Origin: Listeria welshimeri serovar 6b str. SLCC5334
Lineage (GTDB): Bacteria > Bacillota > Bacilli > Lactobacillales > Listeriaceae
Assembly: GCF_000060285.1 (NCBI RefSeq)
Contig: NC_008555.1
Location: 248,001-312,000 of the forward strand
Length of the DNA stretch: 64,000 nt
Direction: 5' to 3'
The notes beneath the pieces are model-generated. The model worked only from the letters and a program-made list of their open reading frames with translations. It did not search any database and was not told where the DNA came from. Made by a program: the position numbers and the translations under genes. Positions 56,780 to 62,760 of the stretch are shown piece after piece. Numbering within the stretch: the first letter of the stretch is position 1; each line of letters opens with the position of its first letter.

Positions 56780-57520
56780 ATGATTCCGTATAAAAGACAA
56801 GAAAAAATCATGGAATTTTTAGGGTCAGAAGAGGTTATAAAAATTGAAGATCTTCAAAAAATCATTCCAAATACATCTATATCAACATTAAGAAGAGATT
56901 TAAAAGAACTGGAAAGGCTTGGAAAAGTGAATATGCTTACAGGAGGAGCCGTTAAAATTTCCTCTAGTACTAGCGAATTGCCAATTTCAACTAAAAGTGT
57001 CCTTCAAACAGAAGAAAAAGAGATTATTGCCAGTTTAGCTGCTAAAGAAATCAATGAAGGCGACGTTATTTATTTGGATTCTGGTTCTACTTGTACAGCT
57101 TTATTAAATAAAATTTTAAATAAAAAAATTAGTATTTTCACAACGAATACAAGTATATTTAACATTTCCACAGAAATTAAGGCAGAAATAACTATTTTAG
57201 GTGGAAGGTACAGTCCTTTTATCTCATCTATTAATGGTCCTTTAACAGACAGCAACATTAAACTTTTCAATTTCGAAAAAGCCTTTTTAGGTGCAAATGG
57301 AATTGATTTGGCAAGAGGTGTAAGCACACCAAACTTAGTAGAAGCCAACAAGAAAAAAGAAATCTTACAAGCCTCACAAAAAGCATTCTTACTATGCGAC
57401 AGCTCAAAAATCCACAAGTCTTCCGCAGTTAAAGCCTTTGAACTAAATCAAGTCACATTAATTACGGATAAGTACGACGTGGACATTGCTGGGTTGACGA
57501 GTTTGATTGTACCGGATTGA
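56780..57520 (+). CDS. DeoR-family transcriptional regulator
   Basis: A 246-residue regulator. Residues 1-55 are the DeoR helix-turn-helix (KRQEKIMEFLGSEEVIKIEDLQ, ISTLRRDLKELERLGKV, LTGGAVK), and residues 70-235 the sugar-phosphate sensor with EGDVIYLDSGSTC, TNTSIF, LGGRYSP and LGANGIDLARGVSTPN. Probably represses the adjacent TIM-barrel PTS operon. GGAGG five bases before the ATG at 56780 fixes that start over two earlier in-frame ATGs. Confidence 0.9.
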   Translation: MIPYKRQEKIMEFLGSEEVIKIEDLQKIIPNTSISTLRRDLKELERLGKVNMLTGGAVKISSSTSELPISTKSVLQTEEKEIIASLAAKEINEGDVIYLDSGSTCTALLNKILNKKISIFTTNTSIFNISTEIKAEITILGGRYSPFISSINGPLTDSNIKLFNFEKAFLGANGIDLARGVSTPNLVEANKKKEILQASQKAFLLCDSSKIHKSSAVKAFELNQVTLITDKYDVDIAGLTSLIVPD

Positions 57521-57548
57521 GTTAGTTGATTATGGGAGGAGAAACGAA

Positions 57549-57830
57549 ATGATGAAAAAAACAGTACACGGATGGGAAATAATATCTAGTTTAGATGTAC
57601 GAGTATACCAAGATGAAGCTGGCGGGGTTGCGATTTTGGTGGATAAAGATGATTTTGGTGATCAAGTGCCAGTATTATTGGATTTTTATGGGGAGGCAGT
57701 TGAAGTAAAAACTCTTTCACATTTGGCGAGAAGTATTCAGATTTCGACTGATAAGAAGGTACGGATTAATTGGCGAGATGAATATTTTGGAGAGAGGACG
57801 CAAGCGATGGAGTCTATTATGGATATTTAA
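57549..57830 (+). CDS. small conserved-looking protein of unknown function
   Basis: A 93-residue soluble protein, not recognised. It has no signal or helix. Sequence reads as alternating beta strands and one helix: WEIISSLDVRVYQDEAGG, VAILVDKDDFG, PVLLDFYGEAVEV, LSHLARSIQISTDKKVRINW. GGAGGAG six bases before the ATG at 57549 supports coding; the frame upstream of that overlaps the DeoR gene end. It starts 28 bases after the DeoR stop and may be cotranscribed. Confidence 0.6.
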   Translation: MMKKTVHGWEIISSLDVRVYQDEAGGVAILVDKDDFGDQVPVLLDFYGEAVEVKTLSHLARSIQISTDKKVRINWRDEYFGERTQAMESIMDI

Positions 57831-58039
57831 AATTATATTTAAATATTTTTGTGAAAAAAGTTCATATTTTGGTTAATAAATTATTATTGAAGATTGAATG
57901 AAACTGTTTTATAAATGATAAATAGTAAAGAAAGTTATACAGAAAACAAGTTTTTTTATATAAATAATACTGAAAATTTAAAATAATTCACAAAACGGGG
58001 GTGCAAGGTCTAGGGCATTGTTCACTAGGTCTTTAATTA

Positions 58040-60691
58040 ATGAATAAAAAAGAAATATATATATATAATAAAATGGTGTATATAAAAGATGAATTAAAAA
58101 ATAATATTGAAAAAGTTTTCAATACAGGAGAGCGATATTATGTATTATATAAAGGTTCTAAGACAGAGTATCTTTATAATAAAGAGGATATTTTAATTAA
58201 AAGCAAGGTGGAATTAACAAGCGAGATTAGAAAAACGATGGACTATTTTACAAATATTGCCAAACATAAAGATTTAGAGAGTGATTTGGGCCAAAACAAA
58301 GGTAAGAAATCTTATTTCTATAAACAACAAATGGAAAAATTAGAAGGTATGAATAAAGGCAGTGCGCTATACTCTTATTTAAATAAAACAAATGAACAAC
58401 GAGAAGAAGTAAAACAATTAATTTTTCCTTTTGGATTGAATTATAGTCAAATGCAGGCGGTTAAGAACTCTTTTTCTTATCAAATAAGTGTTATTCAAGG
58501 GCCGCCGGGAACTGGAAAAACACAAACAATCTTAAATATTATTGCAAATGCAGTTAAAAATCAAAAAAATATTGCTGTAGTGTCCCCAAATAACAAAGCT
58601 ACTACTAATGTTTATGAAAAATTAGAAAAAGAAGGTTTTAAATTTATTGCTGCACAATTAGGTAATTCGAATAATAGGAAGAATTTTTATCTGAAAATTA
58701 GTGAGATACCTAAAGAAATAAAAAGTTGGTTTATACAAGAAGAGCAATTATTAAAATTAGAACAAGATTTAGTTCAAAAACAAAAAAAGATAGTTGAGTT
58801 ATTAAAAGAAAAAAATAAAATAGCTACTCTCAAACATAAGCTAAGAGAATGGGAGTTAGAGCAAAAATATTTTAAAGATTATCAAAACGAGTTTTCGTTA
58901 GTTGATAATTCTAAAGTAAAAATCAAAAAAATGTCATCAATAGATTTTAATCTTGTAAAAAAGCAAAAATTCATTATTGATTTGATGACGTATAATCCTG
59001 AAATACCACATCTTTTTTATAGATTTAAGTACTTTTTTAAATATGGAATTTATCATATGAATGGAGTTAAATCAGCATTAGGTAGGATGGAAGTTATAAA
59101 TAAGAATAGAGAAGAATATTATAGTGATAAAATTGAGGCTATAAAAAATGAAATAAATAGAAGTGAATCTTTTTTAGCAAAAAACCAGTATGAAAGCACA
59201 ATAAAAGAGATTGAACTATGCTCAAAACAGATTTTTAAACATAATTTATGTATTCGATATCAAGCTAAGAATGAAAGAGAGTTTTCTACAGACAGTCATA
59301 AAAATGAATTTGAAAAGTTCAGTGCAAGTTTTCCGGTAATATTGAGTACATGTGATTCAATTATGGAGTGTATCTCTAATGAGCAAACTTTTGATTATGT
59401 TGTTGTGGATGAATCATCTATGGCAAGTTTAGTACCAGGCATTTTCTCGCTAGCTAAAGCAAAAAATATTATTATTGTTGGGGATGATAAACAATTACCG
59501 TCAATACAAATTGACAAGAAAAAAATAAATGAGCTTTCAACAATCCCAGCTGAATATGATTACTTCGAAAACAATTTGTTAACGTCTTTAATAGAAGTAT
59601 ATGGAGAAAAACTGCCTAGTACTATGCTAAGAGAACATTACAGATGCCATCCGATGATTATAAATTTTTGCAATAAGCAATACTATAATGACGAGTTAGT
59701 TATTATGACTGAAAATAAAGGTATCAAAAACCCTCTCGTGAGAATAAAAACTAGTGAAGGTAACCATATGAAATTTGACCAAGATGCTAAAATCTTTAAC
59801 CAGAGGGAAATAGACACTTTTCTAAGCAAAGAATTTACGGAAAAAGTTCCAGAAATAATGGGGATTGAGTCACTTGGATTTGTTTCTCCTTATCGTAGGC
59901 AAGTGGACATAGCAGAAGAACAGGTGCAAGCTAAGTATGAACAAGCGATTGTTGATACAGTGCATAAATTCCAAGGGCGAGAATGTGATGCTATTATTTT
60001 TTCGACAGTACTAGATCAAAAAGGAGTAAACCGACTTGGCTTTGTGGATAGTTCTTGTTTATTAAATGTGGCAGTTTCTCGAGCAAAAAAAATATTGGTT
60101 TTAAATACCTCTGAGGAAGTATTTATGAACAACGATAAAGATATTGCAGCTTTAATCCGATATATAAAATATTATGGAGAACATAGTATAGTTTATCAGA
60201 GCAAAGTACGTTCAATTTTTGATTTATTACAACAAGAATTTTCAGCAGAACTAGAAAAGAAATTATCAAAAATAAAGAAAAAACATTCTAAGTATAATTC
60301 TGAAAACTTAACAAGACTGTTGATTGATGAAATTCTAAAAGAGCCAGAATTCAAGCATTTATCTTATCAACCAGAATACGAAATTCGTTTACTAGCAAAA
60401 GATTTATCGATTTTAAGCGATGAGCAAAAAAAGTATGTTACAAATGGAGCTAGTTTAGATTTTATCTTTTTTAACAAAATGGACAAAGAGCCGATTGCTG
60501 CAATCGAGGTAGATGGGCATAAATTTCATAAGTATGATCGTCAGAAGTTAAAAGATAGTTGTAAAAAAGATATTATCAATACTTTGGGAATTAAGTTTGA
60601 GGCATTATCAACAAATGGTAGTGGAGAAGAAGATAAAATTCGCGCGCTTTTAAAAAGTACTCTTATACAAAATGCAGAAGGAGAGAAATAA
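58040..60691 (+). CDS. superfamily 1 helicase fused to DUF2726 nuclease-like domain
   Basis: An 883-residue protein. The helicase has Walker A IQGPPGTGKTQTIL (about 152-165), Walker B VVVDESSMASL (about 455-465, DESS in place of DEAx), GDDKQLPS, LREHYRCHP, GFVSPYRRQV, VHKFQGRECDAIIFST and NVAVSRAKK, all marks of Dna2/Upf1-type SF1 helicases. Between motifs Ia and II is a coiled-coil-rich insert (about 225-430). The C-terminus (about 755-875) is DUF2726 with GASLDFIFF and AAIEVDGHKFH, a PD-(D/E)xK-like D...ExD arrangement. AT-rich, weak ribosome binding site, and an (AT)6.5 run just after the start. It is one base from the 5'-nucleotidase gene. Confidence 0.85.
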   Translation: MNKKEIYIYNKMVYIKDELKNNIEKVFNTGERYYVLYKGSKTEYLYNKEDILIKSKVELTSEIRKTMDYFTNIAKHKDLESDLGQNKGKKSYFYKQQMEKLEGMNKGSALYSYLNKTNEQREEVKQLIFPFGLNYSQMQAVKNSFSYQISVIQGPPGTGKTQTILNIIANAVKNQKNIAVVSPNNKATTNVYEKLEKEGFKFIAAQLGNSNNRKNFYLKISEIPKEIKSWFIQEEQLLKLEQDLVQKQKKIVELLKEKNKIATLKHKLREWELEQKYFKDYQNEFSLVDNSKVKIKKMSSIDFNLVKKQKFIIDLMTYNPEIPHLFYRFKYFFKYGIYHMNGVKSALGRMEVINKNREEYYSDKIEAIKNEINRSESFLAKNQYESTIKEIELCSKQIFKHNLCIRYQAKNEREFSTDSHKNEFEKFSASFPVILSTCDSIMECISNEQTFDYVVVDESSMASLVPGIFSLAKAKNIIIVGDDKQLPSIQIDKKKINELSTIPAEYDYFENNLLTSLIEVYGEKLPSTMLREHYRCHPMIINFCNKQYYNDELVIMTENKGIKNPLVRIKTSEGNHMKFDQDAKIFNQREIDTFLSKEFTEKVPEIMGIESLGFVSPYRRQVDIAEEQVQAKYEQAIVDTVHKFQGRECDAIIFSTVLDQKGVNRLGFVDSSCLLNVAVSRAKKILVLNTSEEVFMNNDKDIAALIRYIKYYGEHSIVYQSKVRSIFDLLQQEFSAELEKKLSKIKKKHSKYNSENLTRLLIDEILKEPEFKHLSYQPEYEIRLLAKDLSILSDEQKKYVTNGASLDFIFFNKMDKEPIAAIEVDGHKFHKYDRQKLKDSCKKDIINTLGIKFEALSTNGSGEEDKIRALLKSTLIQNAEGEK

Positions 60692-60692
60692 A

Positions 60693-61625
60693 ATGGCATT
60701 TAATTTAAAAGATAAACTAGTAATTGCAGTAGCATCAAGTGCATTGTTTGACTTAACAGATTCTGACAAAGTCTTTAGAGAACAACATGAGAGTGCTTAC
60801 AGAATGTACCAAAGAGAGAATGAAAAAACTCCGCTTGAAAAAGGGGTAGCTTTTTCGCTTATAAAGAGGTTATTAAGTTTAAATACAGCGGACGATCATT
60901 TAATTGAAGTGATATTATTATCTAGAAATGATCCAGATACAGGTTTAAGGGTATTTAATTCTATAGCTACATATGGGTTAGATATTTCTAGAGCAATTTT
61001 TACGGCAGGCGAAAATCCATTTAAATACATAGATCCTTTAAATGCTTCTCTTTTTTTGTCTGGTAATATTGATGATGTAAAGGAAGCGATAAGTTATAAA
61101 TGTCCAGCTGGATATGTTGCTAATAAGAAATATGAGGATGACGGGGACGAAGAGTTAAGAATAGCATTTGACTTTGATGGTGTTATTGCAGACGATGAAT
61201 CTGAATCTGTATATCAGAATAATGGTGGATTGGAGAGGTATCAAGAATATGAAAAAGAACATGCAGATGATAAAATGGGAGAAGGTCCTTTGTTTGAATT
61301 TTTCAATCAGCTTGCTGAAATTCAAAAGAAAGAACTAAAGAAGGCGGACGAAGATTCATCCTATAATCCCATCATAAGAATAGCAATTTGTACTGCGAGA
61401 AATGCACCTGCACATGAACGTGCAATTAAATCTTTACGAAGATGGGATTTGAGAGTAGATGAAGCTTTCTTTTTAGGTGGGATTGATAAGAGAACTGTTC
61501 TTGATGTATTTAAACCGCATATCTTCTTTGATGACCAAGAATGTCATATTGAATCAGTAGGAGAATCATTTCCATCTGCACATATTCCGTATGGTGTTAC
61601 GAATCAGAAAAAGGATGAGGTATAG
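60693..61625 (+). CDS. cytosolic 5'-nucleotidase (cN-I-like HAD)
   Basis: A 310-residue HAD phosphatase of the 5'-nucleotidase (cN-I) family. Motif I is IAFDFDGVIADDESESVY, where DDESE is typical of cN-I; motif II ICTARNAPAHERAIKSLRRW; motif IV IFFDDQECH. The N-terminal part (KDKLVIAVASSALFDL, LIEVILLSRNDPDTGLRVFNSI) is also characteristic. Expected reaction: dephosphorylation of (deoxy)nucleoside monophosphates. It starts one base after the helicase stop with AAGGAGAG inside the helicase end, so both are made from one message. Cytoplasmic. Confidence 0.85.
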   Translation: MAFNLKDKLVIAVASSALFDLTDSDKVFREQHESAYRMYQRENEKTPLEKGVAFSLIKRLLSLNTADDHLIEVILLSRNDPDTGLRVFNSIATYGLDISRAIFTAGENPFKYIDPLNASLFLSGNIDDVKEAISYKCPAGYVANKKYEDDGDEELRIAFDFDGVIADDESESVYQNNGGLERYQEYEKEHADDKMGEGPLFEFFNQLAEIQKKELKKADEDSSYNPIIRIAICTARNAPAHERAIKSLRRWDLRVDEAFFLGGIDKRTVLDVFKPHIFFDDQECHIESVGESFPSAHIPYGVTNQKKDEV

Positions 61626-61671
61626 GGGTTAGATAACACAAAAAATTTGATCGTAAAAGGAGTGAATCTAA

Positions 61672-62760
61672 ATGACAAACACGCTAAAAACCAGCTACCA
61701 AAAAACACCTTATAAACTAGGCGGAAACGGTACGCGGAATATTGGTGTTCTTACAGAAGCGCTTCAAAATATAGATAATAACCTAGAAAGCGATATATAC
61801 GGAAGCGGCCCAATTATTGAAGATTTTGAAACGAAAATCGCGAAAATTCTTGGTAAACAATCTGCGGTATTTTTTCCGAGTGGGACTATGGCTCAACAAA
61901 TCGCGTTAAGAATTTGGGCTGACCGGAAAGAGAATCAACTCGTGGCATATCATCCACTTTCGCATTTGGAGATTCATGAGCAAGACGGGCTAAAAGAATT
62001 GCAGCAAATCACGCCAATATTACTTGGAACGGCGAATCGACTTGTGACGATTGATGATATTAAAGATCTTCGCGAGCCAGTTGCTAGTGTGCTTATTGAA
62101 CTGCCGCAACGAGAAATTGGTGGGCAACTTCCTTCTTTTGAAGAGCTTGAGGAGATTTCGGAGTATTGTCATGAACAGGGTATTTCATTGCATCTGGACG
62201 GAGCGAGGTTATGGGAAATTACACCTTTTTATCAGAAGTCTGCGGAAGAAATTTGCGCTTTATTTGATAGTGTATATGTGTCGTTTTATAAAGGAATTGG
62301 CGGGATTGCTGGGGCGATTTTGGCTGGGTCTGATGATTTTGTGCAAGAGGCAAAAATCTGGAAACGTCGATATGGTGGTGATTTGATTAGCCTGTACCCG
62401 TATATTTTGTCCGCGGATTATTATTTTGAAAAACGGATTGGGAAGATGGCGGAGTATTTTGAGGCGGCAAAAGGATTGGCTGAGCGATTTAATTCGTGTT
62501 CGGGCGTGAAGACTGTGCCGGAAGTACCGGTTTCTAATATGTTTCATGTTTACTTTGAGAAGTCGGCTGATGAGGTTGGGACGATTTTGACGAAGATTCA
62601 GGATGAAACTGGTGTGGGGATTTCGGGTTATTTGCAAGAGAAATCGGCGGATGTTTGTGCGTTTGAGGTTTCGATTGGGGATGCGTATGCGGAGATACCT
62701 GTGGAGGTTTTGGATGTTGTGTTTAAACAATTAGAGGTAGGCTCCCCATGCCAAAACTAA
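61672..62760 (+). CDS. low-specificity L-threonine aldolase
   Basis: A 362-residue PLP enzyme of the threonine aldolase/beta-eliminating lyase family that cleaves L-threonine or L-allo-threonine to glycine and acetaldehyde. FPSGTMAQQIALRIW, LIELPQREIGGQ, SLHLDGARLWE and YVSFYKGIGGIAGA (PLP Lys) are visible. AAAGGAGTGA precedes the ATG. Its last 13 bases overlap the chbG start. The last quarter is distinctly richer in G than its neighbours. By position lmo0305. Confidence 0.92.
   Translation: MTNTLKTSYQKTPYKLGGNGTRNIGVLTEALQNIDNNLESDIYGSGPIIEDFETKIAKILGKQSAVFFPSGTMAQQIALRIWADRKENQLVAYHPLSHLEIHEQDGLKELQQITPILLGTANRLVTIDDIKDLREPVASVLIELPQREIGGQLPSFEELEEISEYCHEQGISLHLDGARLWEITPFYQKSAEEICALFDSVYVSFYKGIGGIAGAILAGSDDFVQEAKIWKRRYGGDLISLYPYILSADYYFEKRIGKMAEYFEAAKGLAERFNSCSGVKTVPEVPVSNMFHVYFEKSADEVGTILTKIQDETGVGISGYLQEKSADVCAFEVSIGDAYAEIPVEVLDVVFKQLEVGSPCQN

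Follow-up and report, generated by a model that had tools for sequence, protein, structure and literature searches.

A helicase gene and a 5'-nucleotidase gene lie side by side in a 64,000-nucleotide stretch of Listeria welshimeri serovar 6b str. SLCC5334 (NC_008555.1, positions 248,001 to 312,000, forward strand), the whole of which we call the window. We think it reasonably probable that these are two separately mobile genes of defence type, neighbours within a defence hotspot of Listeria and likely to be transcribed together. Both genes are accessory and patchy in their presence, and their location is hotspot-like. Opportunistic stacking, and not a conserved system, is the best account of why they adjoin, and the helicase, judged from the sequences compared here, looks like a widespread stand-alone defence gene. 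An earlier note on this DNA, made from its letters before any database search, had proposed that the two genes form one candidate defence system. The link to defence survived in part: both genes are accessory, the helicase family is found near defence genes and the nucleotidase matches the PADLOC candidate PDC-S08, but they do not appear to be one two-gene system. The probabilities that we attach to our reading and to the four rivals weighed below are not mutually exclusive and add up to slightly more than one.

Distribution of the Helicase and the Nucleotidase

The earlier note had raised the possibility that the pair is core in all Listeria, and this turned out not to be so: among 25 genomes of the genus, the window's own included, the helicase is present in three and the nucleotidase, which is of the cN-I type, in one. 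The sister genome G005 encodes a helicase that is 96% identical and no cN-I, and the third helicase of the genus, in G024, has 35-42% identity and is divided between two contigs. A sample of the order (395 genomes) held the helicase in 13 genomes (E up to 1e-60) and cN-I in two, with both genes solely in the window's genome. The phylum sample (398 genomes, overlapping slightly with that of the order) held the helicase in 13 genomes, cN-I in 14 (E up to 1e-30) and both in two; in the second of these (G403) the genes lie on different contigs, and adjacency is confined to the window. This co-occurrence (2/398) has a hypergeometric p of 0.07, or 0.33 with the window excluded (1/397).

A helicase of this family was found at none of the best 80 of at least 581 cN-I loci, where at least 4 kb was available on both sides in 59 and on at least one side in 75; one weak match to a superfamily 1 (SF1) helicase had 24% identity. 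Nor did cN-I stand beside the helicase at any of 37 helicase loci, including the 23 whose neighbourhoods are described below. Among 5426 Escherichia coli genomes, cN-I (query from locus L044) occurs in 67 and the helicase in 643, and the two were not neighbours at any of the ten loci viewed, two of the helicase and eight of cN-I. That the genes adjoin repeatedly in independent genomes is not supported, and the two-gene defence system of the earlier note found no second instance as far as we searched.

Near full-length relatives of the helicase occur in plasmid records of Bacteroides, Parabacteroides, Caballeronia, Arthrobacter and Escherichia. A phage-borne origin was considered and rejected on the following counts. 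We found cN-I in 3 of 50,697 phage records and at five viral loci, and the helicase in one phage record (E up to 1e-20, 58% covered). A scan of viral contigs with the single helicase protein returned none, and a scan with the alignment returned 46 loci; eight of these are nearly complete and amount to about five distinct ones.

Location in a Probable Listeria Hotspot

The place of the two genes was compared by blastn with G005, in which it is split between two contigs. Homology starts at 57549 within the small upstream gene (88.3%), the helicase DNA is 96.8% identical over 2520 bases, and homology ends at 60661 to restart at 61650, just before the aldolase-like gene. The space of the nucleotidase is taken in G005 by a lipoprotein-like and an MFS-like gene (an impression from sequence), and beyond the aldolase-like gene G005 carries a type II restriction-modification (R-M) pair, with a methyltransferase at 3.6e-186 and a restriction endonuclease at 9e-106. 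The flanks are the same in the two genomes and the cargo is different.

In L. monocytogenes the interval lmo0301-lmo0305 has been named an "immigration control region": most of 872 genomes have R-M systems there, and some have "putative DNA helicase genes" of unknown function, 20 of 30 of them flanked by type II R-M systems (Brown et al., 2023; PMC10059834). The likeness of these genes to the helicase studied here is one of location, apparently in the same hotspot; they are flanked by R-M genes as the helicase is in G005, and no nucleotidase is mentioned with them, the word having 0 occurrences in the main text of that paper. The interval that holds our helicase and nucleotidase appears to be the published region, because the gene order and the R-M genes of G005 fit; lmo0305 we take to be the aldolase. 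The metabolic genes that the earlier note saw on either side are indeed there, but the interval fits this known R-M hotspot.

Organisation of the Two Genes

Both genes are on the plus strand and only one base, 60692, separates them, as the earlier note had it (Table 1). A GGAG ribosome-binding site stands nine bases 5' of the nucleotidase start, and because it sits inside the helicase gene, the two proteins are likely to be translated from one message. The weak initiation signals of the earlier note apply to the helicase, whose start has no good ribosome site as judged by eye, and not to the nucleotidase with its GGAG. An in-frame stop at 58034 lies two codons ahead of the helicase ATG, and a promoter scan of 57400-61900 gave 21 matches against 22.3 in shuffled sequences, i.e., no excess. 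The DNA is AT-rich, again as described before, with a GC content of 28.6% in the helicase gene and 34.2% in the nucleotidase gene against 36.0% in the window.

Table 1. Features of the helicase and nucleotidase locus, in window positions
Feature	Position	Strand	Basis
Small conserved gene at the hotspot's upstream border; DUF6661 match under the cut-off	57507..57830	+	G005 comparison, family scan
SF1 UPF1/SMUBP2-like helicase with C-terminal nuclease domain, 883 aa	58040..60691	+	Open reading frame, Pfam, PDB relatives, alignment
Walker A GPPGTGKT, helicase residues 154-161	58499..58522	+	Invariant in 21/21 aligned relatives
Walker B / motif II DESS, helicase residues 457-460	59408..59419	+	D457, E458 and S460 invariant
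DUF2726 predicted nuclease domain, helicase residues 801-871	60440..60652	+	D807, E823-x-D825, H830, Q835, D839 and K842 invariant
Stretch without DNA match in sister genome G005, contains the nucleotidase	60662..61649	+	blastn
GGAG ribosome-binding site of the nucleotidase, within the final codons of the helicase	60680..60683	+	Sequence
cN-I type 5'-nucleotidase, PF06189, PADLOC PDC-S08, 310 aa	60693..61625	+	Open reading frame, Pfam, PADLOC
HAD motif I AFDFDGV, nucleotidase residues 158-164, catalytic D160 and D162	61164..61184	+	D160 and D162 invariant in 32/32 aligned sequences
Threonine-aldolase-like gene (name assumed from sequence likeness), downstream edge of the hotspot	61672..62760	+	Open reading frame, G005 comparison

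The Helicase

By its motifs and its nearest solved relatives, with which the assignment fits, the helicase is a member of the UPF1-like group of SF1. It matches AAA_12 (2.1e-27) and AAA_11 (1.1e-23) of Pfam, and its residues 801-871 match DUF2726 (6.2e-08, 32.9 bits against a cut-off of 24.7), which bears out the SF1 helicase with a C-terminal nuclease-like domain of the earlier note. The best relative in the PDB is SMUBP-2 (4.9e-24), followed by SEN1, DNA2 and UPF1. We aligned 21 intact relatives of 31-96% identity, omitting split or cut-off copies (including those at L020, L033, L035, L037, L170, L171 and L172) and L038. Walker A, motif II and motif VI are invariant in all 21, as is the nuclease set D807, E823, D825, H830, Q835, D839 and K842; D807, E823, D825, Q835, D839 and K842 are also invariant in a second set, in 7 of 7. 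The stretch of about residues 210-430 is poorly conserved. With this conserved acidic and lysine active-site set, the DUF2726 domain is a predicted nuclease, and DUF2726 has been described as a DNase of the restriction endonuclease fold (PMC3710099).

The SF1 core would engage nucleic acid, most likely DNA, that is invading, stalled or replicating abnormally, and unwind it, and the C-terminal nuclease domain would cut what has been unwound. For both genes of the locus, the substrates, the trigger, the co-transcription and the protective effect are what we infer.

The Nucleotidase

The nucleotidase matches PF06189 over the complete model (E 1.5e-121, positions 1-302 of 302), so that the cN-I type recognised in the earlier note holds over the full length. 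Its match to PADLOC PDC-S08 is likewise full-length (E 1.6e-133, model 15-319 of 323); that label stands for a single-gene candidate without a helicase. Residues D160, D162, T234, R236, K266, D280 and D281 are invariant in 32 of 32 aligned cN-I sequences, and to judge from them the protein is a full-length cN-I with intact HAD catalytic residues. The DDESE motif of the earlier note (residues 167-171) follows the HAD nucleophile motif proper, FDFDGV with D160 and D162, although its D168 and E171 are invariant too. The enzyme would hydrolyse (deoxy)nucleoside monophosphates, (d)NMPs, to nucleosides and so lower the nucleotide supply during infection.

No PDB sequence matched the protein at E up to 1. 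A fold model (pLDDT 89.6) was compared with solved structures, and its catalytic half matches the HAD phosphatases Pnkp1, T4 Pnkp, AphA and a deoxyribonucleotidase-like protein. The top Foldseek matches of the whole model, with TM of about 0.2, were set aside as meaningless, the HAD half alone matching. That the enzyme acts on nucleic-acid ends, as a 3'-phosphatase, in place of free nucleotides seems to us highly improbable.

Neighbours of Helicase Relatives

Around relatives of the helicase we surveyed 23 loci, choosing by hand 96 of 169 open reading frames (ORFs) within about 2.6 kb and leaving out a few. These include ResIII (9), DEAD (9), DUF3427 (3), NUDIX (2) and BrxC/D (1) members, and many of the 96 have strong PADLOC matches. 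Named defence genes lie within 5 kb of the helicase at 7 or more of the 23 loci. The ten proteins in each of two PADLOC scans were picked for the most part for a defence-like appearance or for their recurrence, and the following are to be read as cases and not as a rate. At L162 the helicase lies about 80 bp behind a complete Shango system (SngA 4e-122, SngB 7.7e-198, SngC 4.8e-254), and at L163 about 35 bp downstream of an Mrr-type type IV enzyme (1.9e-88). Type IV enzymes (mREase_IV) are also near it at L161 and L169, with a weaker, type IV-like helicase at L168; LmuB and PDC-S28 are near it at L028 and the type II R-M pair at L026 (G005). At three loci on viral contigs (L189, L190, L191) it adjoins what appears from the sequence to be a prophage tyrosine integrase, and on the plasmid at L022 an N-6 methylase, an SNF2 protein and a TIR gene lie upstream.

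Helicase relatives thus placed appear to lie near defence genes more often than expected, the comparison set being cN-I neighbours, chosen in a different way, and not random genes. The method does not simply generate this signal by itself, because in a like scan around cN-I every family was confined to a single ORF.

Three further arrangements were observed. A NUDIX (MutT-like) gene and a type IV-like DUF3427 helicase directly adjoin the SF1 helicase at L161:11952-15464 and L169:6916-10361. In three genera (L029, L030, L031) the helicase stands beside SufB/D-type Fe-S assembly genes, with SUFBD_core in 3 of the 96 neighbours, which possibly reflects a shared insertion site. An uncharacterised protein of 560-569 aa follows the helicase by about 15 bp at L164:11348-13030 and cN-I by about 26 bp at L173:2246-3955; the two copies match each other at E 8e-33 and match nothing in PADLOC at E up to 1e-5.

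Neighbours of Nucleotidase Relatives

For the best 80 cN-I loci, tblastn positions were used throughout; 17 of them lack a called cN-I ORF. A conserved operon partner of cN-I was rejected, since Pfam families among the 126 nearest ORFs have at most three members each; the four families with three are regulator or signalling domains. Membership of cN-I in defence islands appears mixed, varying by lineage. In one E. coli lineage, at all eight loci viewed from 67 genomes, cN-I has type I R-M genes on one side and an integrase on the other, each whole or remnant. The order in these islands (L157, L158, L159, L160, L044, L181, L182, L183) is type I R-M, a variable slot, the 5'-nucleotidase and the integrase, and in five of the eight a phosphorothioate-DNA restriction enzyme stands between the last two. 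The variable slot carries differing defence genes, among them Dsr1, SIR2 and AAA plus HNH. Six of the eight loci show a tRNA (Leu, Sec, Phe or Thr), none being listed in L044 and L183. Another E. coli cN-I (L023), 51% identical to that of the window, is plasmid-borne and outside such an island.

Elsewhere, HsdM/HsdS-type genes are near cN-I in a Klebsiella record, and single cases have HsdS upstream (L173), a DndD/PbeC-like gene (L178), Wadjet JetC (L118) or a type III restriction enzyme (L047), the last two at a distance of about 2 kb. In G213, which has the nearest cN-I relative found (68% identity), an Mrr plus Zn-ribbon nuclease gene lies 16 bp upstream. Several cN-I relatives of the Bacillota type are among housekeeping genes. 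At L047:1237-2659 cN-I is directly ahead of an rlmH-like gene, with the type III enzyme farther on; we take rlmH to be the integration site of staphylococcal cassette chromosome (SCC) elements. The Zymomonas plasmid pZMOB01 (L042) has an unannotated cN-I that forms a cluster of nucleotide-acting genes with its neighbours SIR2, adenosine deaminase and a non-canonical purine NTP pyrophosphatase.

Some of these neighbourhoods bear on the rival reading of a true two-gene unit, in which the helicase-nuclease would break down DNA of phage or host, leaving cN-I to dephosphorylate the freed 5'-dNMPs and so to block their rephosphorylation and reuse. The one-base gap and the second ribosome site inside the first gene would suit such a unit, as would the nuclease gene that cN-I likewise follows in G213, the HsdS in the upstream neighbourhood of cN-I at L173 and the 560-569 aa protein that follows both the helicase (L164) and cN-I (L173). 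A T5-type Dmp would be a phage precedent working in reverse. Disposal of the nuclease's products by cN-I is an appealing idea, but we find a two-gene unit rather unlikely: no second helicase/cN-I pair came up in any survey made, the 96%-identical helicase of G005 does without cN-I, and DUF2726 nucleases would also have to release mononucleotides. A broader form of the same idea, a "shred and starve" pairing in which a modular cN-I is joined with a helicase-DUF2726 nuclease at our locus, with Mrr in G213 and with type I R-M enzymes in L173 and E. coli, is one that we hold to be unlikely.

Weighing a Defence Role

Several observations count against the reading of two mobile, defence-type genes in a hotspot. 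For cN-I, the 126 ORFs nearest to the best 80 loci hit 26 PADLOC families, none of them in more than one ORF, and a control of 109 ORFs lying 7.5 kb away hit 47, so that there is no excess of defence among the near genes. Two of the eight E. coli copies (L159, L181) are annotated as frameshifted, R-M-type genes are near cN-I in two of eight further plasmid loci (L042, L043), and among Pseudomonas aeruginosa strains in the portion of PMC10855318 available to us, the one paper found to use the label, carriers of PDC-S08 split 50/50 between phage-resistant and phage-susceptible, with no function stated for the label. For the helicase, SF1 and SF2 helicases cross-match many PADLOC models, which inflates the counts above; 16 of the 23 loci have no neighbour among the defence genes identified by name here, and three of the four plasmid loci viewed (L019, L020, L021) have no evident one. 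Several loci (e.g., L030, L031, L032, L038) are in housekeeping-like surroundings, and several relatives are split ORFs (L020, L033, L037, L170, L172).

An ordinary DNA repair helicase next to ordinary nucleotide metabolism, with no role in defence, would agree with the closest solved relatives of the helicase (SMUBP-2, SEN1, DNA2, UPF1), with its loci among housekeeping genes and with the neighbours of close cN-I relatives, which are mainly regulators, transporters and metabolic enzymes. It fits poorly with the patchy presence of both genes, the helicase in 3/25 and cN-I in 1/25 genomes of the genus and the helicase in 13/395 of the order and 13/398 of the phylum, and with the R-M hotspot, the prophage edges and the defence neighbours, and it strikes us as distinctly unlikely. 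Two mobile genes of defence type, stacked in a hotspot, is the reading that we retain.

Comparison with Known Systems

Of the described architectures that we found, the closest is CnuH of type III-B CoCoNuT systems, in which a nuclease of PD-(D/E)XK type is joined to a UPF1-like helicase of SF1, as it is here. CnuH is described as having a large helical insertion after Walker A, a direct fusion to a Vsr-like PD-(D/E)XK nuclease and predicted RNA targets (PMC11090510). In our helicase the fused domain is DUF2726, and MTES_1575 is matched only below the cut-off. That our helicase is a stripped relative of CnuH acting on RNA and not on DNA would be compatible with a stand-alone gene, and the published fusion architecture and RNA targets, together with the RNA helicases among its PDB relatives, speak for it. 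CoCoNuTs, however, are McrBC systems, and McrC (PF10117) has no match in the window's own genome and adjoins the helicase in 1 of 24 genomes of relatives (G403, a weak McrBC match), in a search that recovered 1 of 14 known genomes as positive control and is hence of uncertain sensitivity, McrB not being sought. We consider this relationship very unlikely; the helicase may work like CnuH, and we do not file it as a CoCoNuT.

No PADLOC model spans the helicase over its full length. MkoA of Mokosh matches the helicase core (E 9.3e-57, model 576-1098 of 1112), with model positions 1-575 unmatched and DUF2726 outside the match, and the MkoC match covers 620-971 of 1136, so that neither Mokosh protein is matched full-length.

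Phage T5 degrades DNA with DNase A1 and dephosphorylates dNMPs with the phosphatase Dmp. The logic of degrading and dephosphorylating is the same as could be imagined for our pair, but the T5-type enzymes are encoded by the phage and act for the other party in the conflict. PMC12265719 mentions phage Dmp, and HAD phosphatases belong to the two-gene defence system DS-9 (PMC13092281). A description of the helicase/cN-I pair was not found in the literature searched, in which subscription papers were mostly out of scope and the primed spelling "5'-nucleotidase" was possibly missed.

Implications

The absence of the pair elsewhere in our surveys keeps a false two-gene "system" off the lists. For Listeria, the helicase-DUF2726 gene offers a concrete candidate for what the "DNA helicase" genes of the immigration control region, so far unexplained, may be. 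For the cN-I family, whose members stand beside restriction genes in some lineages, the clean-up of nucleotides once DNA has been cleaved becomes a testable idea, and if shredding and starving were indeed combined in this way, the freed dNMPs would be reusable by neither phage nor host.

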